Below are positions 488 to 26,523 of a stretch of DNA of 26,523 nt, piece after piece. How positions within the stretch are numbered: position 1 is the first letter of the stretch; each line of letters starts with the position of its first letter. The position numbers and the translations under genes are program-made. Source of the DNA: a virus; the IMG/VR virus record IMGVR_UViG_3300013138_000730, positions 1-26,523 of that record. The stretch is one strand, 5' to 3'. The notes under the pieces were generated by a model. That model worked only from the letters and a program-made list of their open reading frames with translations, was not told the DNA's origin and searched no databases.

Positions 488-747
488 GCGGAAAGCTTGA
501 GAATGAGGTATTGGCTTAATTTCACCAAGCCGCCCCAAGTTAATCGTAGGATCGCTACTGCTGCTGTGATAGGCCATCCCAACGAGAATGCGGTGTACGC
601 TTCTGCATTGCTGGACCAATCATCGTAATTGGCATAAGTTTTTTCCTGGTTGTAATCGACCCAGTATTTCTTTCCGAATATTGACCACACTATTAAACTG
701 ACAAAAAATCCGATCACGTAGATCGCTATCCATCCTAATGGTGCCAT
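484..747 (-). CDS. Small two-segment membrane protein, unknown function
   Basis: An 87-residue protein with a hydrophobic segment at residues 5-24 (GWIAIYVIGFFVSLIVWSIF), a polar Tyr/Asp/Asn-rich middle, and a second hydrophobic stretch at about 52-85. It therefore probably sits in the host inner membrane as a hairpin. Its stop overlaps the glycosylase start as ATGA. Its first 128 bases overlap the annotated 3' end of the FkbM gene in another frame, which is unusually long for this compact genome. If the FkbM frame shifted at the A7 run just upstream, FkbM would stop two bases before this ATG. No family is recognised; a membrane role in lysis or superinfection exclusion is possible but unsupported. 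Confidence 0.6.
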   Translation of the reverse strand: MAPLGWIAIYVIGFFVSLIVWSIFGKKYWVDYNQEKTYANYDDWSSNAEAYTAFSLGWPITAAVAILRLTWGGLVKLSQYLILKLSA

Positions 748-1552
748 GGTTAAATGTTTTTTTGAAAGCGGCGAAGTGAGTAATGAAATGCTTGTGACTT
801 GCGGCTCTGGTGTTAACGTATACCCTTTCGAAATTATCGGTCATGATCTGCATGATTTCCGCGAATTTCGATTTCCGGTTTTCCAGGAGCCAGCTATAAT
901 GAAAGTGATACTCGACAATGATGAGTTTTATGTTGCTCCAGTCTCTAACGGCTTTGATCGTTTCGTATTCCATCCCCTCAATGTCCATCTTCACGCAATT
1001 TACCTTCTTCAGAACGTCATTGATGTTCTCAGCAGGAACGACCATAATTTCACGGCCTTTTACCGGATGAACGCTATGCTTGCCGGAATCGTGAGACAAG
1101 AAGAATTCGACGTTAGGTGAATCGTCCACAACGATCGCTTTTTCGACCAGTTCGCAACGATTTTCTACCCCGTTCATTTCGAGGTTCTGTTGAGCGAATT
1201 CGATGTTGTTATGGAAAGGTTCGTAGGCATACACCTTACGAATTCTTGGAAACTGAGTCAGCATCCTGACCGCAAATATTCCTATGTGAGCTCCTGCGTC
1301 CAACCAGGTATCTTCCTGGTCAAGATCTGCCAGAGTTAACGATGGAAACCCCTGAGCGTAATGTGGTATGAAGAGAGGCTTAAAGTACTCTCCGCCAGTA
1401 GGTTTGATAGAAATGTTCTGCGAAATGTTGAACTTGATCTCTTCCTCCGATCTTACGAGAAAGCGATAGTCATGATATTTAGTACGTTTTTCGTATATTT
1501 GGAGAGTCCCCGCTAGTCTAGCTTCCTCTATGGAGCATAATACGTCCGCCAT
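620..1552 (-). CDS. FkbM-family SAM-dependent methyltransferase
   Basis: Predicted to transfer methyl from S-adenosylmethionine to a hydroxyl, typically of a sugar. SAM motif I is WLDAGAHIGIF (83-93), followed by the acidic YEPF turn (110-113), the FkbM signature VKMDIEGMEYE (187-197) and IIVEYH strand (211-216). In phages these enzymes often accompany glycosyltransferases, and a large one lies at 22429-24777, so the two may work on the same glycan (inference). A promoter-like TATAAT element lies 22 bases upstream. The last 43 or so codons after HFAAFKK look unrelated to the family and overlap the next gene by 128 bases. An A7 run at 757-763 could shift the frame by -1 and end the protein at 750, just before the next ATG. 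Confidence 0.85.
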   Translation of the reverse strand: MADVLCSIEEARLAGTLQIYEKRTKYHDYRFLVRSEEEIKFNISQNISIKPTGGEYFKPLFIPHYAQGFPSLTLADLDQEDTWLDAGAHIGIFAVRMLTQFPRIRKVYAYEPFHNNIEFAQQNLEMNGVENRCELVEKAIVVDDSPNVEFFLSHDSGKHSVHPVKGREIMVVPAENINDVLKKVNCVKMDIEGMEYETIKAVRDWSNIKLIIVEYHFHYSWLLENRKSKFAEIMQIMTDNFERVYVNTRAASHKHFITHFAAFKKTFNHGTIRMDSDLRDRIFCQFNSVVNIRKEILGRLQPGKNLCQLR

Positions 1553-8568: not shown

Positions 8569-9562
8569 GTCCGCCTGAAATAAAGAAAAGATCTTTGACC
8601 GTGAAGCCGGACTTTGAAAAAAGAGGCGTGGATACTGGTTTTCCACATTTCGGACAGGACGTTCCTACCATTGACATACGCGCATCCTCAAGCAGCTTTA
8701 CGAATTTCGTTACGAACGTGAACTTATTGATGTGCCACGAAAAATTCTCGGTGGCTAAGTCCTGGTACTTTTGCTGCGTGAACGATTGCCAATCCTGAAT
8801 CAGGTATGGAGCGATAGGAATGAATGCCTTATCGATCTTTCTTCCGTCCGCCCTAGCTTGAGTTATTCTTGCTCTTAGCTTTTCTACTGCTCCGATCGTC
8901 GGCATGTAAATGTAGAACGTTTCGTTCAGTTTCTGCGATTCGATTTCGAAGCACTTGTACTGAGGAGAATAGTACCGCATCACCTCGTCCGGAAATTCAA
9001 TGAAACTTAGCATTGGACTTTTCACCCGAAGTTCGTCCGTCCATTTTTCCTGATCGACGCACGGTCCAGGACATGTGAACTTGACGAAGATCGCGTTCTG
9101 ATCGTCTGGAAATGTTATTTCCTGGATTAAGAATATCAGAGCTAAACGATCAAGTTCTGAAATATCCCGCCATGTTAACCAAGCTCTGCCGCCCCTGATC
9201 TTCACTCTGCAGCATTTTTCAATGATGAAGTTCAAAGTGTCATCGACGTCGAGACGGTCATTCTCGTCCATGGTGGACCATTGCCTGATTTCGCTAACAC
9301 TTGCTGACCTGATCGTGATTTCGGTTCCGTCGGGATAGAACATTCCACGCGACGGTAAATTTTCCAAGGGAACGTTCTTCCAATGCGAATCATTCGATCC
9401 ACTGATCGTAGATTCCAACATTGGAGTTATCGCTCTTCCTAGGTTTGGTTGTACTGCTTTTGGTTCTGGTTGCGGAGCTTCCTGATTCTTTCTGAACTTT
9501 CTATCCTGTTCTTCCAAAAATTCGCGACCAGCAGATTCCAGGTTGTCACCCTTTTCTTGCAT
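8552..9562 (-). CDS. Probable baseplate hub protein, T4 gp26-like
   Basis: 336 residues. A charged, disordered N-terminus (1-60) precedes the signature LENLPSRGMFYPDGTEITIR (66-85), common at the start of T4-like baseplate proteins of the gp26 type. The core continues with DDTLNFIIEKCCRVKI (107-122) and LDRLALIFLIQEITF (137-151). Cys pairs at CPGPC (164-168) and CPKCGKP near residue 305 could bind a metal ion. Proteins of this family act in assembling the central hub of the baseplate. It has its own AATAAATAA site 23 bases upstream and overlaps the small downstream gene, so the two are translated together. The fold family is likely; the exact T4 equivalent is less certain. Confidence 0.6.
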   Translation of the reverse strand: MQEKGDNLESAGREFLEEQDRKFRKNQEAPQPEPKAVQPNLGRAITPMLESTISGSNDSHWKNVPLENLPSRGMFYPDGTEITIRSASVSEIRQWSTMDENDRLDVDDTLNFIIEKCCRVKIRGGRAWLTWRDISELDRLALIFLIQEITFPDDQNAIFVKFTCPGPCVDQEKWTDELRVKSPMLSFIEFPDEVMRYYSPQYKCFEIESQKLNETFYIYMPTIGAVEKLRARITQARADGRKIDKAFIPIAPYLIQDWQSFTQQKYQDLATENFSWHINKFTFVTKFVKLLEDARMSMVGTSCPKCGKPVSTPLFSKSGFTVKDLFFISGGLDELI

Positions 9563-9584
9563 GGGTATAAATTATTTTACTAAT

Positions 9585-9593
9585 TTATTTATT
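9585..9593 (-). promoter_or_regulatory. Late-promoter-like site AATAAATAA
   Basis: Minus strand CCAATAAATAAATT, 23 bases before the ATG at 9562, directly after the stop of the upstream gene. Same motif as at the other late-promoter-like sites. Confidence 0.55.
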
Positions 9594-9598
9594 GGATT

Positions 9599-10051
9599 TT
9601 ATATCAGGAACTCCAGGAAGGTTTTTGCTCGGTGATTCTTGGACTCGGTGAGTCGACTTAAAGTCTGGGGATAAACTTCTATCAATTTCATGGATTTCGG
9701 ATCCCTAATGAAAGCTCTGATCGTCTGCGATTTCCTGTCAATCTTAAGCGAATCGAATATTCCGAAAACTACTGTAGGCTGACTTTTTTCGTTGGTAAAT
9801 ACAGAGTTCGTCTTTACGCCACTAATCCGTGACCCCTTCTTAAACATTTGGCTAAGCTTATTGATCTCATCAGCGAACGAATCAACGTTCACAGGAGCCA
9901 CCCTGGAGAGATCTGCGAGTGGTAGGATCTTAATAGCAATACCATTGCTGTACGGAGATTTGGACGCAGCAAAATTGAAATCGGACCTTCCGTAAAATGG
10001 AAGACCTTGCATGGCCTGCTGCCTCTGTCCAAATGTCATGATTGGTATCAT
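9599..10051 (-). CDS. Hypothetical protein
   Basis: 150 residues, no recognised family. Mixed alpha/beta composition, no membrane segment; KSQTIRAFIRDPKSMKLIEV suggests a beta hairpin. The ATG overlaps the stop of the upstream gene by one base (TAATG), so translation is coupled. Position before the hub gene suggests a structural or assembly role, by context only. Confidence 0.65.
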   Translation of the reverse strand: MIPIMTFGQRQQAMQGLPFYGRSDFNFAASKSPYSNGIAIKILPLADLSRVAPVNVDSFADEINKLSQMFKKGSRISGVKTNSVFTNEKSQPTVVFGIFDSLKIDRKSQTIRAFIRDPKSMKLIEVYPQTLSRLTESKNHRAKTFLEFLI

Positions 10052-10386
10052 TAGACCATAGATGGTAAGTTTGTCGTTCCCAATAGGACGATGGTTCCGT
10101 CAACTGCTGCAGTTAGCTTTGCAACTTGACAGTAAAAAGTTCCGCCAGCCGGAATCTTGATCGTGACTCCGCTTCCGCCTGTTCCCTGTGAAACTGTCCA
10201 CACGGTAATGTCCTGAGCCGCAACCGCACAGTTATGAATTCCGAACCAACTTGGCGACATTGTTCCAATGGATCCTGGGATTCCATCGTTCACGATAGCT
10301 CCGCTAGGATTCGTGTCCGTAAAAGTAGGAGTGTAAATCGTGTCGTTATTTGCGTGTTTCTGTACGTATTTTGCAATCGGGATCAT
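10051..10386 (-). CDS. Small beta-rich protein, unknown (virion-like composition)
   Basis: 111 residues rich in Thr, Gly, Ile and Val with alternating strands (ITVWTVSQGTGGSGVTIKIP, then AAVDGTIVLLGTTN), ending at a TAATG overlap with the next gene. The N-terminal IPIAKYVQKHANNDTIYTPT is polar. Composition resembles small decoration or fibre-associated proteins, but no family is recognised. It lies 14 bases after the stop of the upstream gene. Confidence 0.6.
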   Translation of the reverse strand: MIPIAKYVQKHANNDTIYTPTFTDTNPSGAIVNDGIPGSIGTMSPSWFGIHNCAVAAQDITVWTVSQGTGGSGVTIKIPAGGTFYCQVAKLTAAVDGTIVLLGTTNLPSMV

Positions 10387-10400
10387 CTGTTACAATATTT

Positions 10401-11138
10401 TTAGCAAGCGCAATCACTAACACTGCCATTGCTCTTAACTGATAGTATCAAGCCGGTTGCTGTAATGCTATAACCGCCTCTACCAGTTTCGTCTGGCACA
10501 CTAGGATTAACTAAATCTATTCTATTTATTAGACTCATCGCGTCCCTAGTTATTGGATTTACAAAATGTGCATAAAACGAATGCAGTGGCATTACCATCG
10601 GTGGGTCAATCATTGGATCGCTCACTCCAGTCCAAATGTGTAAAAGACACTTATTGTCCTCTACCAAAACTTCATTTCCACCCTTATCTACTGACGAATA
10701 CGTCACGTACAAGAGAATTCCACGAGCGTAATTCCTTTCATTTTCTAACAGGTAATATGCTGGCAAACTCGATGGTCCGTAAGTACCAGAAGGCGCAATG
10801 TATTCCGTTCCTTGTCCAAATGGATAATTTTCGCTTCCTGTTCCTGTCCAGTAATTAGGCGCCGAAACCAAGTCCAATTGGTCAAGACCATTATAGAATA
10901 GCATTAGCGCTTCGCCTGAACAAATTTCAAAATTTATGGAATTCTGAGTATCGACCGGATACACGAAATTCTGAAGCGCGCAGTAAGCCGCATCAGTCTG
11001 AGCCTGGTTGAAAACCATGAAGCATTTATCGATCAGTCTCAAAGTTTTCTTTCCACTGGTTTGGGAAGCGCATAGATTTGCGAAAGCCGCGCTGGTCCTC
11101 TTTTTTAACGGGTCGTCATTGTATTGAATGTATGCCAT
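10401..11138 (-). CDS. Hypothetical protein
   Basis: About 245 residues from the ATG at 11138 (MAYIQYNDDP); a TTG three codons further upstream is possible but less likely. Rich in Asn, Tyr, Ser and Gly with many short strands (YNGLDQLDLVSAP, NYARGILLYVTYSS) and ending in a Cys-rich tip, SVSDCAC. No catalytic motif or membrane segment is visible. The base sequence looks more AT-rich than its neighbours, a common trait of exchangeable fibre or accessory genes. A fibre or virion surface function is only a guess. Confidence 0.6.
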   Translation of the reverse strand: MAYIQYNDDPLKKRTSAAFANLCASQTSGKKTLRLIDKCFMVFNQAQTDAAYCALQNFVYPVDTQNSINFEICSGEALMLFYNGLDQLDLVSAPNYWTGTGSENYPFGQGTEYIAPSGTYGPSSLPAYYLLENERNYARGILLYVTYSSVDKGGNEVLVEDNKCLLHIWTGVSDPMIDPPMVMPLHSFYAHFVNPITRDAMSLINRIDLVNPSVPDETGRGGYSITATGLILSVKSNGSVSDCAC

Positions 11139-11154
11139 GTCAGTCAACTAATTT

Positions 11155-11943
11155 TTACGGATCGTGCGGCCGTTTTAAGTCGGGGATATGCTCTCCCCTA
11201 GCTACTATCTCATCTATCGTCTTCGTATGATGAGTAGTTGGGCTTATGTTATTTAATTGCGGACTGCTGGCAGGTTCAGGCGCTGTGGTCGTTACGAGTT
11301 TAGGTTCCGTGGTTGGAGGTTCAACTGATTCTTCACGTTTCTTGAAAAATAATGGAACCGCTGGTTTTTCCTGTTTAGGTGCTACTGTGGTCGTAACTTC
11401 CTCTACTACTGGAGCAGGCTGTTCTTCTTTTATCGGTTCAGGTTCGAGCACTTCCTCGTAAGGTAAGCTGGGTTCTTTTTCCGGTCTTGGTTCTATTTCT
11501 TTGACCGTTTCGTCTGGCTTTATGTAATCGACTAGGGCCTTTATGAAACCTAGGGCTACCATAGGTAAGATTGCACCGCTGATCAGGCCAAGAATCCTCT
11601 TCTGGTAAATCACCTCTTCGTCGACCAAACCGAATAGTTCTATCCATTGTTGATAATCCTTTGCATGAGAGTACGCGAAGTAAGTATTTCCCATTGCCTG
11701 CATTGCCGTTAAGACTATGAATAGGGCCCAAACTATGGTCTTATTCATCTTATGAAGGGCAACTATTGAAGCTAAGGACGCGGCTGCTCCGACCTCGTAA
11801 GCGACTGCAAGGCCGATAGCTAACCACATCGGATTAGTTAGCGCAAAAAAATCAACGACGTGAACCGTTGATATGAGCGAAGTAATTACATAAAGCAAAG
11901 TGAATGCACTTATGACGAAATAGTGCACCATTTTCTTTTTCAT
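11155..11943 (-). CDS. Four-segment membrane protein with Pro/Glu-rich tail
   Basis: 262 residues with hydrophobic segments at about 7-30 (YFVISAFTLLYVITSLISTV), 38-63, 68-88 and 118-138, then a long soluble tail from about 145 rich in Pro, Glu, Thr and Val (EPRPEKEPSLPYEEVLEPEP). The tail is probably disordered and cytoplasmic. The start overlaps the stop of the upstream small protein as ATGA, which links it to that membrane-anchored coiled-coil protein. No family is recognised; roles in envelope remodelling or superinfection control are possible but unsupported. Confidence 0.65.
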   Translation of the reverse strand: MKKKMVHYFVISAFTLLYVITSLISTVHVVDFFALTNPMWLAIGLAVAYEVGAAASLASIVALHKMNKTIVWALFIVLTAMQAMGNTYFAYSHAKDYQQWIELFGLVDEEVIYQKRILGLISGAILPMVALGFIKALVDYIKPDETVKEIEPRPEKEPSLPYEEVLEPEPIKEEQPAPVVEEVTTTVAPKQEKPAVPLFFKKREESVEPPTTEPKLVTTTAPEPASSPQLNNISPTTHHTKTIDEIVARGEHIPDLKRPHDP

Positions 11944-19799: not shown

Positions 19800-20203
19800 G
19801 GGGGTGAACGGCATTGACGTGAGCGATCGGGTTAAACTTGCATGCCGAGAATGATACCATCTCGCTAACTGTATCAAAACTGTAAGTGGCAACACTACAA
19901 TCTGGGATCTCATCAATGGCACCGCTGTTGCTGAGAGCGTTGACGAGCTAGCACTAGTTGCGTAAACCGTTGGCCGCACTTGCCAACGACCATCGAAGAA
20001 AGGTGCACGTACGGAAAATCGGCAATAGTACCGTTTCGAAACCGTGGAGCCGAAATCATCCACGACAGGTTCGCTGACTGGACCCTAAGTCAGTTCAAAA
20101 AAGAAGGGCAAAGGTTTTGTTGGCTTCGTAAAACCAACTAAGCATGTGAACGAAAGTTTAGTCAAGCACTAAACGGACATGGGTTCGAATCCCATCACCT
20201 CCA
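19800..20203 (+). ncRNA. ssrA: Transfer-messenger RNA (tmRNA), one-piece
   Basis: Phage-encoded tmRNA that would rescue stalled ribosomes and tag the released peptide. The 5' end GGGGGTG pairs with CACCTCC (20196-20202) as the acceptor stem, with A20203 as discriminator; CCA is not encoded (CGG follows). The T arm is ATGGG-TTCGAAT-CCCAT (20179-20195). The 5' domain contains the conserved CTTGCATGCCGAG. The tag frame opens at GGC (19888) just after a TAAGT context, parallel to TAGTC-GCA in E. coli, and closes at TAA 19963-19965. The 404-base length exceeds the usual 360 or so because the tag is long. Downstream bases to 20203 should form pseudoknots, not traced here. It is followed by a terminator and a homing endonuclease. 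Confidence 0.92.
19888..19965 (+). other. tmRNA tag reading frame (25 residues plus stop)
   Basis: The resume codon is GGC (Gly). The tag begins GNTTIWDLINGT, continues AVAESVDE and ends LALVA-stop. The last residues match the ALAA/ALVA signal recognised by ClpXP-type proteases. At 25 residues it is much longer than the usual 8-15, and the IWDLI stretch is hydrophobic. A glycine resume codon is, from memory, typical of Bacteroidota tmRNAs. Confidence 0.8.
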
Positions 20204-20211
20204 CGGGAATG

Positions 20212-20262: not shown

Positions 20263-20970
20263 ATGCCACGTAAGCAACACACTCACCACTATATCTATCG
20301 AATCACATGTTCTGTTACTGGTAGATATTACATCGGCATGCATTCCACTTCTGATCTCGAAGATAATTACTTGGGAAGTGGTACTCAATTATGGCGATCG
20401 AAAAACAAACACGGTAAGCATACGCATACCAAAGAAATCCTAGAATTTTTACCAGACCGAAAGGCTTTAGCAGATAGAGAACGAGAGATCGTTAACGAAT
20501 CGCTAATTGCTGATCCTATGTGCATGAATTTAATGAAGGGCGGAGAAGCTGGAGGATTTATGAATGAAGAGCATCAACTAAAATGCTCATCTGCCGGCGG
20601 AAGAACCACCAATCCAGAGAAATCGAAGAAGGCCAGCGAAAAGATGAAGGAATCGAATCGCAAAATGATGGAGCAAGGAATTCATCATACTCCTAACTGG
20701 ATAGGTAAACACCATCGACCGGAAATTCGCGAATTGATAGGTGCGAATAGTTCAGTAAAACAGAGAGGTTCTAGAAATTCGCAGTTTGGAACCAGATGGA
20801 TCTCTAATGAAGTTGAGAGTATAAAAGTTAAGGATGAAAATCTCCAAGTGTATCTAAATAATGGTTATCAAATGGGAAGAAAAAAGAAAGTAGTAAAATC
20901 AGAAAGCGACCTAGCAATAGAAAGGGCTTGTGAAATAGCCAGGCAACACCCGGAAGATCCGGGGTTATGA
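20263..20970 (+). CDS. GIY-YIG homing endonuclease (T4 Seg / I-TevI type)
   Basis: A mobile-element nuclease that cuts a target near its own insertion site in phage DNA lacking it. 235 residues: the catalytic GIY-YIG domain at about 9-90, with HYIYRITCSVTGRYYIG (9-25), DNYLGSGT and EREIVNESLIADP; then DNA-binding NUMOD3-like repeats (IGKHHRPEIRELIGANSS, 147-164) and GSRNSQFGTRWISN (168-181), typical of this family. It is free-standing, not intron-borne, directly after the tmRNA. A GAGG ribosome site lies 10 bases before the ATG, inside the terminator hairpin. The stop is followed in the same frame by 25 sense codons that look like the end of another gene. Confidence 0.92.
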   Translation: MPRKQHTHHYIYRITCSVTGRYYIGMHSTSDLEDNYLGSGTQLWRSKNKHGKHTHTKEILEFLPDRKALADREREIVNESLIADPMCMNLMKGGEAGGFMNEEHQLKCSSAGGRTTNPEKSKKASEKMKESNRKMMEQGIHHTPNWIGKHHRPEIRELIGANSSVKQRGSRNSQFGTRWISNEVESIKVKDENLQVYLNNGYQMGRKKKVVKSESDLAIERACEIARQHPEDPGL

Positions 20971-21817: not shown

Positions 21818-22432
21818 TTAGCTGAATTCCGGTTCAACGTCGAAGTTGAAGTACTGGAACGTCACTGTGAACGATTTGAATTCGCTCTTCACTGCAGCGT
21901 ACGACAGTTGAAAGTCGGTCAATCCCTTTATCATAGGCCGGTTGAATATCAGGGACATGAATGCGTATCCCTCGTTGTTCAGAATGGTCAATCGAATCGG
22001 CCCAAAGAATGGGTGATTTACATTTTCCACGGCCGGAACGCTTAATGCTTGTCCCAATGAATTCTGAGTGTTATGCGGATTGATGTTCGCGAAGTCCAAG
22101 TAATTCAGCATGTTGTCCAGAAAAATGAAGTAATTCATCCAACCGTCTGTAAGCTTGAAGGATATTTTGAGTTCCCTCGTGAATTGATCTGCAATAGGAA
22201 CTCCACTTTGACTTTCCTGCCTCTTTCCTAGAACTCGTACCTGTTGTTTTAACTCGCTCTGAAATCCTGGAAAATTCATGGTCTGTATTGTTGAAGCCAT
22301 GAAATCCGACAGGGATCTGTACGGAGTCATGAGGTTGCGATAGTACTTCTCGTACTTCTTGTCGATTTCTGGATTGAAGAAATCCTGCGGTAGGTTTATG
22401 AGAAACCCATTCTGTCTGGCGTTTAGTATCAT
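21818..22432 (-). CDS. Tail-tube-fold protein (gp19/gp48/gp54-like)
   Basis: 204 residues. After an N-terminal arm (QNGFLINLPQDFFNPEIDKK, then MASTIQTMNFPGF) comes a beta fold with RELKISFKLTDGWMNYFIFL (about 84-103), FGPIRLTILNNEGYAFMSLI (143-162) and the terminal pair LTDFQLSYAAVKSEFKSFTV and TFQYFNFDVE. The final pattern of a LxLxY strand followed by FTVTFQY is typical of tail tube proteins. The N-terminal arm is longer than in T4 gp19, so it might be a tube-initiating baseplate protein rather than the main tube subunit. Its ATG overlaps the glycosyltransferase stop as ATGA. Its TAA shares the TAATTA with the convergent gp15-like gene. Confidence 0.6.
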   Translation of the reverse strand: MILNARQNGFLINLPQDFFNPEIDKKYEKYYRNLMTPYRSLSDFMASTIQTMNFPGFQSELKQQVRVLGKRQESQSGVPIADQFTRELKISFKLTDGWMNYFIFLDNMLNYLDFANINPHNTQNSLGQALSVPAVENVNHPFFGPIRLTILNNEGYAFMSLIFNRPMIKGLTDFQLSYAAVKSEFKSFTVTFQYFNFDVEPEFS

Positions 22433-24777
22433 ACAGGATTATCTATAACGCTGTCCAGCGCGAGCTTCAGTTGTTCGATCACCATCTTTGGAGTTATTGA
22501 CCTAGTACATTCGAACATTCGTTCGGTGCCCTTATGATCCGGACACCATAACCAATCGTTCGTCGTCAATCTGTATCGATTGAAACAACCGGAACATTTT
22601 CCTTCCGGTGTGATCACCCTGAACGTGTTCAGCTGCGTTTCCGTGTAAGGATACGAGAAACCGGAAATTATGACGGTAGGAACGTCAAGAGCCCAGGAAA
22701 GCCAGCTCAAACCGCTACCGATTCCAACGAAAGCTTGCGAGGCAAGTAATTCCTTGATGACGTCCTCTATTGGACCGTTCGGATGCTTGCGTATTCCAGT
22801 TGGATGAGAGTTTCCCATGAATCCATCATCTTCCTTCGAAAGCAGGACGACTTCGTATCCGTTGGCATTGCACCAATCGACGACCTTCTGCCAGCCACCA
22901 GTTTTGTTCCAGTACTTGGCTTGGCAAGTCGCGTGAATTGCAATTGCTATCTGTTTCTTTTTCTTTACTTTAGGAAGTGTAAGAATGGGTTTCGTTTCCG
23001 TGTACTCCAATCCAAGAATGTCGAACTGCGATTTCTGCATTGGCATCGGTCTTGGATCGCTTGGGTTCTTAGCCAAATCTAGCCTATCCTCCTTATCGTC
23101 CGCATAGAACCAACCCAATGAATACATAGCAACGAGATCAGGAACTGGAGTTCCCGGTTCTATGAACTCTATCTCCGTGTAGTTTTTCTCGAACAAATCA
23201 TTGTGAAATGTCGAGCATATCATTTTGCAACTGTGCTTCTTACGAAATTCCTCGATCGGTGGAAACCAGCCTAACGTATCTCCAAGAGATTGAGATTCCA
23301 GGGAAATGTAGACCCTGCGATCCTTAAGCTCTATTGACTTGTCCAGTATGATCTCGTTAGTTTTGACATCGATCAGCTTTATCTGCCAGTCCACGTAGTA
23401 CTTCTTGTACGCAAAAACGTTAGAGTTATTCTTTATCGTCTGTTCGTGTTCGACCTTGCCAGTTGACTTATCAATGAATTGAACTCGGAACGATGCTGGG
23501 TCACCACCCGTGATCTCCAGGTGAGGACCACCGACAAAATGATATGATACTTTAAGAGTATTGGGATCATTCCTGATCACCTCTGTGATGAGATCTTTCC
23601 TGCTTTCCAAATGATCCGCCGCGAGCTTTGCTACCCTGTCCCAATTGTAAAGCTCGTGTATTTCCTTGGCTTCGATCAGGGCTCTTTCTTTATGTTCCTC
23701 GTACTTCTTGTAAGCATCACGCATTACTTTGCCGAGATCCTCAAAATCCGGTTCGTAATAATTTCCGACCGTTTCGTTGAAGTGATTGTACGAGCTGGCA
23801 TTCGCTGGTTTTTCTCCGAGAACCTTAACCGGAAGTCCCCTACCTTCGGCAAATTCTAACTGAGCGCAGCAATTCGAGTAAATGGATGGAGTTCCGCAGG
23901 CCATTGCTTCGATGAGAGGTAAGTTCCAACCTTCGGATCTTGAACAAGATAGGAAAACATTCATTGATCGCAGCAAGTTAACGTAATCTTCCCTTGGCGG
24001 AAGGTGCACTATCTTTATTCTAGCGTTTAGAAGGCCGTACTTTTCGAGCCTTTCTTCTGTCGTCTTTAGCTTGTCGCCGGAATACGGATTATCGATGGAA
24101 ACTATGAGATCTACCGGTTCTTTAGGATCGAACGTTTTCAAGAAAGTCTCGATGATTTCCTTGGTGGACTTTCGATAGTCCCACCTACCGAAAAGACCGA
24201 AAGTGAATCTCTTGGGATTGCTCGTGAGAACGTGATATGCTTTAGCTGGGTAAAATGTTGAAGTATCGACTCCCTCAGGTATCACGAACACTCTATCCTC
24301 TGGGTATCCCTGCTTTATCGAACAGTCCCTTTGCCATTTAGATGGGACCCATAGCTCGTGAAATTCGAGAAGTTTTTTGAAGAATGCGTCTGGTTGAAGG
24401 GTTGATTCCCAGACGTTGAATGCTATTTTGTACCCAGAATACGGACGATAGAAGTAATGATGGTTCGTTTCGTTCAGAACGAGATTGATTCCACATTTCC
24501 CGGGATTCGGATAGCTCTGGTATATCGGAAAATCGACCAGCTCACGTTTATCGTCCCATATCGACTGCTCAGTCATTAGGGTCTTCAACTGATCGTCGAT
24601 GTACGGTTCGTAATTATGAGGTTCCTCTGAATAACCTGTCCAAGTCTTGCCTATCGTGAAGTTTCGGATCTCCAAGGGAACGTACTTGGATAGTGCTCTG
24701 AAAAAAGATTGCGCGTGATTATTGTATCCAGTGGTGCCAATTAGGGAAGTGGACACTCTGATCTTGATGTCGAACAT
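22429..24777 (-). CDS. Two-domain glycosyltransferase: GT4 plus TibC-like O-heptosyltransferase
   Basis: 782 residues joining two enzymes. Residues 1-390 form a GT4-type transferase: GYNNHAQSFFRALS, FGLFGRWDYRKSTKEIIETF (193-212) and the E-x7-E motif in SEGWNLPLIEAMACGTPSI (281-299). Residues about 405-782 match the autotransporter O-heptosyltransferase (Aah/TibC) family: a beta domain (VQFIDKSTGKVEHEQTIKNN, 432-451), VYISLESQSLGDTLGWFPPI (489-508), EFRKKHSCKMICSTF, a GT9-like donor site GIGSGLSWLSWALDVPTVI (685-703) and a Cys finger C728-x2-C731-x13-C745-x11-C757, like the iron finger of TibC. That family adds heptose to Ser residues of autotransporters. Here the likely acceptors are Ser/Thr-rich virion fibres encoded just upstream (inference). 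Confidence 0.85.
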   Translation of the reverse strand: MFDIKIRVSTSLIGTTGYNNHAQSFFRALSKYVPLEIRNFTIGKTWTGYSEEPHNYEPYIDDQLKTLMTEQSIWDDKRELVDFPIYQSYPNPGKCGINLVLNETNHHYFYRPYSGYKIAFNVWESTLQPDAFFKKLLEFHELWVPSKWQRDCSIKQGYPEDRVFVIPEGVDTSTFYPAKAYHVLTSNPKRFTFGLFGRWDYRKSTKEIIETFLKTFDPKEPVDLIVSIDNPYSGDKLKTTEERLEKYGLLNARIKIVHLPPREDYVNLLRSMNVFLSCSRSEGWNLPLIEAMACGTPSIYSNCCAQLEFAEGRGLPVKVLGEKPANASSYNHFNETVGNYYEPDFEDLGKVMRDAYKKYEEHKERALIEAKEIHELYNWDRVAKLAADHLESRKDLITEVIRNDPNTLKVSYHFVGGPHLEITGGDPASFRVQFIDKSTGKVEHEQTIKNNSNVFAYKKYYVDWQIKLIDVKTNEIILDKSIELKDRRVYISLESQSLGDTLGWFPPIEEFRKKHSCKMICSTFHNDLFEKNYTEIEFIEPGTPVPDLVAMYSLGWFYADDKEDRLDLAKNPSDPRPMPMQKSQFDILGLEYTETKPILTLPKVKKKKQIAIAIHATCQAKYWNKTGGWQKVVDWCNANGYEVVLLSKEDDGFMGNSHPTGIRKHPNGPIEDVIKELLASQAFVGIGSGLSWLSWALDVPTVIISGFSYPYTETQLNTFRVITPEGKCSGCFNRYRLTTNDWLWCPDHKGTERMFECTRSITPKMVIEQLKLALDSVIDNPV

Positions 24778-24787
24778 TAAGGAAATT

Positions 24788-24820
24788 GCAATTTTAGGAT
24801 TTTATACTTAATCCAATTGC
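24788..24820 (-). promoter_or_regulatory. AT-rich hairpin with TATAA loop before the glycosyltransferase
   Basis: The minus strand reads GCAATT-GGATT-AAGTATAA-AATCC-TAA-AATTGC: an outer 6-bp and an inner 5-bp stem with a 3-base bulge, ending 11 bases before the ATG at 24777. The loop holds AGTATAAAA, resembling a weak late promoter. It may combine terminator and promoter functions; no U run follows, so termination is doubtful. Confidence 0.3.
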
Positions 24821-24826
24821 TCGGTT

Positions 24827-25259
24827 CTACGATACTTGAACGTAACTTGCGGTTACCACTTGAAAGGTGTCTCCGATTTGAACGGTGAATACTATTCCAT
24901 TGAAATCATCACCGGACATTATCTGGAATGCTAGAGCGGTAGTCGTGTTCGCAGTACCATTAGTCAAATTCATTATCAAGTCCTCTTTACTTCCTAATGA
25001 CCATACGTTAACGTTAACGTCATTACCACAAGCGGTAGTATCAAAAGCTATTTCAATATTGTACGTGTGAGACAAAGCATCAGTCACTCCAAAATCATTG
25101 CTGTAAAGATTAACCGATATTACTTGGACAACCAATCAATTGCCGAGAATCCTTTATCACGTAATTCGAAAGATCGTCTCCGCTCCAATCGTCCGCTATT
25201 CCATCCGAATCACTGTCAACTCATAATGTCTGACCTTCACCGCCAGCGTTCAGAATCAT
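24827..25259 (-). pseudogene. Decayed fibre-type gene (nonsense plus frameshift)
   Basis: From the ATG at 25259 the frame reads MILNAGGEGQTL, then TGA (25223-25221), then VDSDSDGIADDWSGDDLSNY. This aligns without gaps to IKNGDGIGTTSWVDTDSDG and VADDW of the protein at 19180-19722, with the Trp codon TGG replaced by TGA. The frame then ends soon after; a second, shifted frame opening at a TTG (25135) continues for 102 beta-rich residues (VISVNLYSNDFGVTDALSHT and on, ending ASYVQVS). One extra base near 25136 explains the shift. The 102-residue ORF has a stop just before it and no ATG. TGA serves as a normal stop elsewhere in the window, so recoding is unlikely. Confidence 0.65.
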
Positions 25260-25283
25260 TTCCTTCAGCTTCTACTATTATTT

Positions 25284-26012
25284 CTAGTTTGTTAATTCAG
25301 GATCGGTTAGAATCATTAACGGCACGTTATCCGGCCAATTGATCGTGATGTTAACTGCGCCGTCTGCTCCGGGCCCGCCGGCACTGGTTCCAGGAAGAGC
25401 CATTATTGCACCTCCTCCGCCTCCACCGTATCCAGTTCCGCTGTTTCCTGCTTCACCGCCGGCACCAGCCGAACCTGTAACTCCTTCACCGCCGGCACCA
25501 CCGCCGGCAATTCCTCCAACTCCAGCTTTTCCACCTACTGCATTTCCTCCGACCTGTTCGTTTCCTGCTCCACCGCCGCCTCCACCTGAAGTTGTAGCTC
25601 CACCATTTGCACCGGTTCCTCCAGTATAACCGAGTCCGGCTACTACCGATCCGCCACTTCCACCAGTAGTGGTCTGAAGAGAGCAACCTGCTCCACCTCC
25701 AGCTTCGGCGTATACTGTATACTTTTTATCTCCAATTCTTTGATACGAGACAGAACTATTTCCGCCGTTTATGGAGGAATCATTTCCTCCAGCTCCTACT
25801 ATTATTTGTATTGTTGTATTCCAAAGATCACCGTCTATTTCAAAATTTGGGCAAGCATAAGCTCCTCCTCCGGCTCCACCACCACGACCGCTCGTCATGG
25901 ATGCGCCCCTTCCTCCGCCAGCCCAACATTCTACTGCACTTATTGTTGCACCGTACGGTAAAATGAAAGTTGAAGTTCCAGGAGTCTTGTATTTTTTAGA
26001 AGTTGATCCCAT
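25284..26012 (-). CDS. Glycine-rich tail fibre tip / adhesin (gp38-like)
   Basis: 242 residues, more than a third Gly. The N-terminal strand PGTSTFILPYGATISAVECW leads into glycine-rich runs (AGGGRGASMTSGRGGGAGGG, GGSGGSVVAGLGYTGGTGAN and others) separated by short strands, and ends with the strand GAVNITINWPDN. This is the pattern of receptor-binding tips such as gp38 of phage S16, where polyglycine helices pack side by side, and of bacterial glycine-rich adhesin domains. It lies directly after the fibre gene, as gp38 follows gp37 in T-even phages. A short tail (VPLMILTDPELTN) follows the fold. Receptor recognition is inferred from family and position. Confidence 0.72.
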   Translation of the reverse strand: MGSTSKKYKTPGTSTFILPYGATISAVECWAGGGRGASMTSGRGGGAGGGAYACPNFEIDGDLWNTTIQIIVGAGGNDSSINGGNSSVSYQRIGDKKYTVYAEAGGGAGCSLQTTTGGSGGSVVAGLGYTGGTGANGGATTSGGGGGGAGNEQVGGNAVGGKAGVGGIAGGGAGGEGVTGSAGAGGEAGNSGTGYGGGGGGAIMALPGTSAGGPGADGAVNITINWPDNVPLMILTDPELTN

Positions 26013-26027
26013 TCATTGATCCTATTT

Positions 26028-26523
26028 TTAGGCTCCGTCAACAGTTATAGTTATCATGGTCGGAGACCCAGACGTGCTTGCGAAATTAACGACTAACCAG
26101 TTTCCTGCAGCAATTGATGTTCCGTTAACTGTTCCGGTCGTACCACCTGTACCAGATATAGTAGATTGTACTGCGGTTCCTGCATAAGTTCCCGGAGTAG
26201 TTCCGTAAAGTACCGTGAATGTTGCGCTAGTATCAGCAGAAACGAAAGTATCGCATGAGGATGGAGTAAAAGTAGCTTTCAATTTTGGACCTAGAACAGT
26301 TCCTGGTGCAGGATTAGCAATGACCCAAGTGAACGTTCTTTCCGGAGCTGCTCCAGAAGTACCAGAAGATCCTGAGGAACCTGAAGTACCAGAAGTACCG
26401 GAAGTACCACTTGAACCTGATTTACCTGACGATCCAGAGCTTCCAGAAGTTCCTGAGGAACCTGAAGTACCAGAAGTACCGGATGCTGCTACTTTCGTTC
26501 TAACATATCCGTCCGAATCGAGA
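26028..26523 (-). CDS. Tail fibre-like protein with Gly-X-Ser repeats (partial, C-terminal part)
   Basis: The 5' end lies outside the window; the frame is open from 26522 to the TAA at 26028-26030 (164 codons). Visible are LDSDGYVRTKVAAS, 14 perfect Gly-X-Ser triplets (X is Thr or Ser, once Lys), a linker APERTFTWVIANPAPGTV, and a C-terminal beta domain (about 80 residues: ATFTPSSCDTFVSADTSATF, VLYGTTPGTYAGTAVQS, NWLVVNFASTSGSPTMITIT). The repeats resemble collagen-like spacing without proline. The Ser/Thr density makes this a good acceptor for the O-glycosyltransferase encoded nearby. It is followed at 15 bases by the gp38-like gene. Confidence 0.75.
   Translation of the reverse strand, partial: LDSDGYVRTKVAASGTSGTSGSSGTSGSSGSSGKSGSSGTSGTSGTSGSSGSSGTSGAAPERTFTWVIANPAPGTVLGPKLKATFTPSSCDTFVSADTSATFTVLYGTTPGTYAGTAVQSTISGTGGTTGTVNGTSIAAGNWLVVNFASTSGSPTMITITVDGA
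26355..26480 (-). repeat. Gly-X-Ser coding repeat (14 triplets) with a 33-base direct repeat
   Basis: 126 bases encode 14 consecutive GTS/GSS/GKS triplets. Within and just beyond it, a 33-base sequence occurs twice exactly (26370-26402 and 26451-26483), spaced by 81 bases. Such repeats can change length by recombination or slippage. Confidence 0.8.

Follow-up and report, generated by a model that had tools for sequence, protein, structure and literature searches.

Why would a virus encode a protein O-glycosyltransferase in the same gene cluster as its tail fibre? This question was raised by the virus record IMGVR_UViG_3300013138_000730, all 26,523 bases of which were analysed (the window) and which is possibly a fragment of a larger genome. 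On its minus strand one gene joins a GT4 glycosyltransferase domain to a TibC-type O-glycosyltransferase domain, and the cluster also encodes a collagen-like fibre built of Gly-(Ser/Thr)-Ser triplets. The best explanation, and one that we regard as fairly probable from the sequence comparisons, is that the TibC domain O-glycosylates Ser and Thr residues of the fibre repeats. A preliminary description of the window had proposed such a fibre glycosylation module together with a gp38-like tip; the part concerning the TibC half gained support from finding the pairing conserved across diverse phages and in bacteria, whereas the gp38-like tip was not.

Residues 409-771 of the fusion protein matched TIGR04414 (hepto_Aah_TibC) with 258.1 bits, above the curated equivalog cut-off of 200, and PF00534 matched residues 186-309 of the N-terminal half with 46.8 bits, in agreement with the preliminary description of a GT4 domain fused to a TibC/Aah-like heptosyltransferase; a C-terminal half without such a family match had been named there as a refuting outcome, and the search did not give it. 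A phmmer search of the PDB gave 4RAP and 4RB4 as best matches, with TibC 4RAP at E 3.2e-55 and 116 of 305 aligned residues identical. In the phmmer alignment the catalytic base D110 of TibC was kept as D500 (residue roles and numbering from passages of PMC4358343). The donor residues T226, K230 and W305 were kept as T617, K621 and W692, and the four iron-finger cysteines (Cys339/342/358/370) as C728, C731, C745 and C757, so that the cysteine finger noted earlier is indeed that of TibC. The hydrophobic thumb pair F265/V266 is F653/M654 in the fusion, and P300 is replaced by G687. An AlphaFold model built from 7 sequences (pLDDT 71.4, pTM 0.52) also recovered the TibC fold, with 4RAP as the best PDB match in Foldseek (E 1.1e-28, TMt 0.76), although the finger and thumb are low-confidence regions of the model. 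The N-terminal beta-barrel family PF21129 reached 21.8 bits, below its cut-off of 27, with strands predicted at 409-481.

The window enzyme thus resembles TibC/Aah (TIGR04414; 4RAP, 4RB4; described in part from PMC4358343) in catalytic domain, base, donor residues, finger cysteines and thumb pair, and differs from it in the fusion to GT4, the loss of R286 and its place on the other side of the family tree. Scans of window proteins with profile libraries found no autotransporter acceptor gene. Since its neighbour is a collagen-like phage fibre and not an autotransporter, the fusion was not filed as an autotransporter heptosyltransferase. With its position beside the fibre being incidental, the enzyme might instead modify lipopolysaccharide or some other glycan on the surface of the host, a role often proposed for phage glycosyltransferases and the one in which parts of PMC7029224 interpret others in host-recognition clusters. 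We consider this very unlikely, as the match to the protein O-glycosyltransferase family far exceeds that to the lipopolysaccharide heptosyltransferase I profile (30.9 bits) and the pairing with a repeat protein is conserved in bacteria too.

The genes concerned are the following, those of the tail cluster being given in transcription order.

26028..26522, minus strand: C-terminal part of a collagen-like tail fibre (PF01391), the proposed acceptor, with triplets and a C-terminal domain; its 5' end lies past the window edge.
25284..26012, minus strand: glycine-rich protein downstream of the fibre, a candidate tip; PF21722 (Gly_rich_2), 45.8 bits, cut-off 24.3.
24827..25135, minus strand: small open reading frame (ORF) between tip and enzyme; phrog_31154 at E 0.035 only.
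22429..24777, minus strand: fusion of GT4 (residues ~1-392) and TibC-type O-glycosyltransferase (~409-771), 782 residues, from profile, phmmer and fold matches.
21818..22432, minus strand: tail-tube-like gene (phrog_45, tail tube, E 4e-4), which marks a late tail cluster.
620..1552, minus strand: FkbM-family methyltransferase, a possible glycan capper; TIGR01444, 72.7 bits, cut-off 37.7; 21 kb from the fusion.

Enzyme and repeat fibre lie in one cluster of same-strand tail genes, and the FkbM gene is present, both at the coordinates given previously. The tail-tube-like gene and the fusion gene overlap by 4 bases, and relatives keep these two genes in the same order. The small ORF matched no NCBIfam or Pfam family at E 1. 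For the candidate tip, PF21722 was the only match; a PDB sequence search returned no gp38, only WRAP-T entries at E of at least 0.18.

The fibre repeats were then considered as acceptor. The window holds 14 Gly-X-Ser triplets, as had been counted, but just 13 are Gly-(Ser/Thr)-Ser (GTS 7, GSS 6) and the other is GKS; with the GAA that follows GKS, 15 triplets were scored before the C-terminal domain. The Ser codons of the fibre are mixed (TCT 7, TCA 7, TCC 3, AGC 1, AGT 1, TCG 1), and the tract is thus not a simple DNA repeat. PF01391 matched with 30.3 bits (cut-off 27.2), Gly occupying every third residue, which is weak proof of homology because the sequence is of low complexity. Pro is absent from the tract. 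The C-terminal domain is 56% identical to the fibre at a related locus, L002, and by comparison with that locus (60 and 13 triplets) further triplets probably lie past the window edge. A complete fibre ORF on contig G002 comprises 3011 residues with 867 Gly-X-X triplets, 1553 Ser+Thr, 13 Pro and 20 Lys+Arg. Across seven loci of the window clade (2871 triplets), Ser or Thr predominated at X and Ser at Y; the repeat tracts have almost no Pro, Thr being found chiefly at X and Ser at Y.

Relatives of the whole protein were found at 12 IMG/VR loci, and a long Gly-(Ser/Thr)-Ser ORF lay upstream of the enzyme in 8 of them. Two loci without it (L008 and L009) have at most 677 bp of upstream DNA; L013 has no repeat ORF within 10 kb upstream and 75 matches to the repeat pattern elsewhere on its contig; the last, L011, has a repeat of another kind (below). 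An isolated phage also carries the pairing, which makes it directly testable: in Microcystis phage Mel-JY01 (PP395634) a single ORF of 1226 residues comprises GT4, a methyltransferase-like middle and TibC (317.4 bits). We read the middle part as a methyltransferase from its sequence and the name in the record, library hits being weak. Upstream of the fusion lies a Ser-rich structural protein and, before that, a Gly-X-X repeat ORF (L014:2-3049) of 1016 codons with 125 scored triplets, open at base 2 of the record; a second ORF, likewise open but at the far end, has the reading frame needed to continue into this one, and the two were left unjoined. This long collagen-like ORF is unannotated, a hypothetical coding sequence on the minus strand being annotated over part of it.

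The pairing is real and recurrent among viruses. The best 80 of at least 587 confirmed viral TibC stretches from an alignment search were compared with 120 control loci taken by an arbitrary 14-mer, a repeat run being defined as 10 or more Gly-X-X triplets whose X and Y positions are Ser/Thr in at least 60% of cases. Such runs were present in 29/80 TibC loci and 0/120 arbitrary loci. In reverse, when 50 viral contigs were picked solely because they matched a DNA pattern of these repeats, 19 carried TIGR04414 (18 above cut-off) as against 0/50 arbitrary contigs. Many repeat contigs are longer than the arbitrary ones, the largest of which has 78 kb, and this favours the contrast; among repeat contigs of at least 60 kb the figure was 12/17. 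Where TibC was fused, 25/33 loci had a run, six loci cut at a contig end being set aside. Eight fused TibC genes lay on contigs of 80 kb or more, and 7 of them had a run in the fetched locus, 1.2 being expected if one run were randomly placed. With near copies removed, runs accompanied 21/25 fused and 4/40 stand-alone enzymes, under slightly different class rules and with cut loci included. It could be envisaged that a common habitat or genome size lies behind the pairing, long repeat fibres and many glycosyltransferases both tending to occur in aquatic phages of large size, and the short control contigs and a non-significant independent-pairs test are in keeping with this; the close placement inside large contigs and the same pairing in bacterial genomes (below) make it improbable.

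Several observations weigh against fibre glycosylation. The 15 triplets are all that the window itself shows, and upstream of one GT4-TibC relative (L011:1-339) lies a different Ser/Thr-rich repeat of the (GSFTGSADATGS)-type and not Gly-X-X; given this fibre end, the acceptor range may be wider than collagen-like tracts. No run was found in 8/33 fused loci, and stand-alone phage TibC had a nearby run in just 4/41, some stand-alone loci (e.g. L056, L061, L088) having repeats elsewhere on the contig. TIGR04414 was absent from 31 of the 50 repeat contigs, many of which are fragments. An independent-pairs test on the tree gave no significant association of fusion with repeats, and fusion was rejected as a predictor of repeats that holds independently of phylogeny. 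The remaining counter-evidence concerns the donor sugar and is taken up below. The tail-tube gene was also tried as a probe for a with/without control; it gave 3 loci only, two of them on contigs already known, and no control was obtained.

Bacterial relatives offered a further comparison. Eighty TibC loci were collected from bacterial and archaeal genomes, and a FastTree of 157 rows was built after removal of 28 near copies (a quick method, with long branches present). One side of the tree consisted of 58 bacterial rows, while 18 bacterial rows grouped with all 81 phage rows. Repeat runs accompanied 14/18 bacterial rows on the phage side and 0/58 on the other (Fisher 4e-12, all rows counted), which is not an independent count since the rows share ancestry; among other-side rows testable with 5 kb on both sides the figure was 0/46. 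Some of the 18 phage-side loci resemble phage DNA, the neighbours of L365 being phage-tail-like as we read them. Two other pairs are surrounded by genes of cellular appearance: in the Methylococcaceae locus L366 (pair at 8841-11092) a stand-alone TibC gene directly follows that of a 316-residue protein, whose N-terminus is signal-like and which bears (GTT/GTS)n repeats, and in L370 (pair at 9953-11875) a Gly-Ser-Ser protein lies near a stand-alone TibC gene. Four neighbours were scanned among the loci of the opposite side; three matched autotransporter-related families (AIDA, Autotransporter, Pertactin) and one a Hint domain.

The sugar is likely a heptose. HldE-like adenylyltransferase and kinase genes were both present in 26/80 viral TibC loci and 0/120 arbitrary loci (20/65 without near copies), about 0.4 kb or less downstream of TibC. 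The best NCBIfam matches of those scanned were below cut-off, at 89.9-115.3 bits for rfaE domain II (cut-off 181.5) and 91.7-124.4 bits for rfaE domain I (cut-off 345). In L054, L035 and L048 the fusion, the HldE-like pair and the repeat fibre are all neighbours; in G004, a 253 kb relative of the window contig, the pair is far from the fusion and adjoins a cupin. The counter-evidence is that rfaE domain II was found in just 4/50 repeat contigs and in 1/12 of the window clade and other first relatives, that gmhA was found in 0/25 contigs and was thus rejected as a member of the phage set, and that R286 is V673 in the fusion. In parts of PMC4358343 this residue is described as contacting adenine in TibC and as highly conserved in the family; it is R in 69/80 bacterial loci and non-R in most phage copies. 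With gmhA absent and rfaE domain II missing from most repeat contigs, either the host must supply the remainder or the sugar differs, and a donor made by the phage itself would be an addition in some phages and not a general rule.

These same observations favour the alternative that the enzyme transfers a non-heptose sugar to the fibre or to another virion protein. This is possible, though we think it rather unlikely: the donor-site residues T226, K230 and W305 are kept, and since V or L replaces R286 in the phage copies beside HldE-like genes too, its loss is compatible with ADP-heptose. Residue 286 was rejected as a marker of the acceptor, because bacterial copies with repeat neighbours can have R at this position and the HldE-linked phage copies have V or L. 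A 'cytidylyltransferase like protein' of Mel-JY01 was considered as HldE and rejected, its sole NCBIfam matches being weak and to nicotinamide mononucleotide (NMN) adenylyltransferases. A similar cupin lies beside the HldE-like genes in two phage groups (L054:11076-11459 and L354:11139-11522); it matched Cupin_2, the L054 copy also hitting D-lyxose isomerase weakly, and might be a sugar isomerase.

The modules attached to TibC vary. Forty-three N-terminal extensions (a few of them bacterial) were sorted by BLAST into groups of 17, 11, 9, 3, 2 and 1, whose representatives bear GT4 domains or a methyltransferase, the L078 group having no Pfam match there. It is plausible that the GT4 half of the window enzyme extends the glycan. 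Methyltransferase domains occur in the same protein as TibC in L136, L107, L080 and L086, which supports methylation of the same glycan in general. The earlier suggestion of capping by the FkbM enzyme was upheld only in this general form; for the window's own gene, 21 kb away, such a role is possible by analogy.

From these comparisons we infer the acceptor, the sugar, the order of steps and the physical and biological effect as follows. The phage would glycosylate its own tail fibre in the cytoplasm, prior to assembly. The TibC-type domain would move an activated sugar, most likely heptose from host- or phage-made ADP-heptose, to Ser/Thr hydroxyls in the Gly-(Ser/Thr)-Ser tract of the fibre whose gene shares its cluster; the fused GT4 domain would next attach a second sugar, and in some relatives fused or neighbouring methyltransferases would cap the glycan. 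Dense glycosylation could turn the nearly proline-free collagen-like tract into a stiff hydrated rod, the sugar replacing the stabilising role of hydroxyproline or forming a mucin-like brush. More tentatively, we suggest a second TibC branch acting on collagen-like Gly-(Ser/Thr)-Ser tracts that are almost devoid of proline; within it phages would build very long glyco-collagen or brush-like fibres, some with their own HldE-like donor genes, and shuffle glycosyltransferase and methyltransferase modules onto one TibC core.

Virion glycosylation has been reported for some mycobacteriophages, on capsid and tail tube (Freeman 2023, as cited in passages of PMC12619734 and PMC11256854). Those systems resemble the one proposed here in that phage-encoded glycosyltransferases decorate virion proteins; they act on capsid and tail-tube C-termini, whereas here fibre repeats and a TibC-type enzyme are proposed. 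Mimivirus L230, as described in sections of PMC9614988, is likewise an enzyme with which a virus glycosylates a collagen-like protein of its own, but it is an unrelated bifunctional enzyme that places glucose on hydroxylysine, while here Ser/Thr are proposed and no hydroxylase. BclA of Bacillus spores carries a glycosylated bacterial collagen-like tract, the sugar being thought to aid stability, and in bacterial collagens the X position is commonly Pro and the Y position Thr (from portions of PMC8968730), unlike the phage tracts. How long, nearly proline-free tracts are stable without hydroxyproline is puzzling, and sugar is a candidate answer.

No report of TibC-type enzymes in phages, or of their pairing with collagen-like fibres, was found among the papers listed in searches confined to open-access PMC. 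Through this pairing a family of protein O-glycosyltransferases whose structure is known is linked with a specific proposed repeat acceptor, both in bacteria and in many phages. Two 2024 commentaries (PMC11461863, PMC11573728) report, in the parts used here, that viruses encode heptose enzymes, whose role both leave open. The HldE-like genes just downstream of phage TibC suggest such a role, and the second-branch proposal, if true, would be one answer to why viruses encode heptose enzymes.

Elsewhere in the window, on the plus strand, a phage transfer-messenger RNA (tmRNA) gene was found at 19800-20206 (Rfam RF00023, 93.7 bits; also ARAGORN), directly followed by a GIY-YIG homing-endonuclease-like gene at 20263-20970. 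A GIY-YIG endonuclease adjoins the tail genes in L002 and L003 as well.

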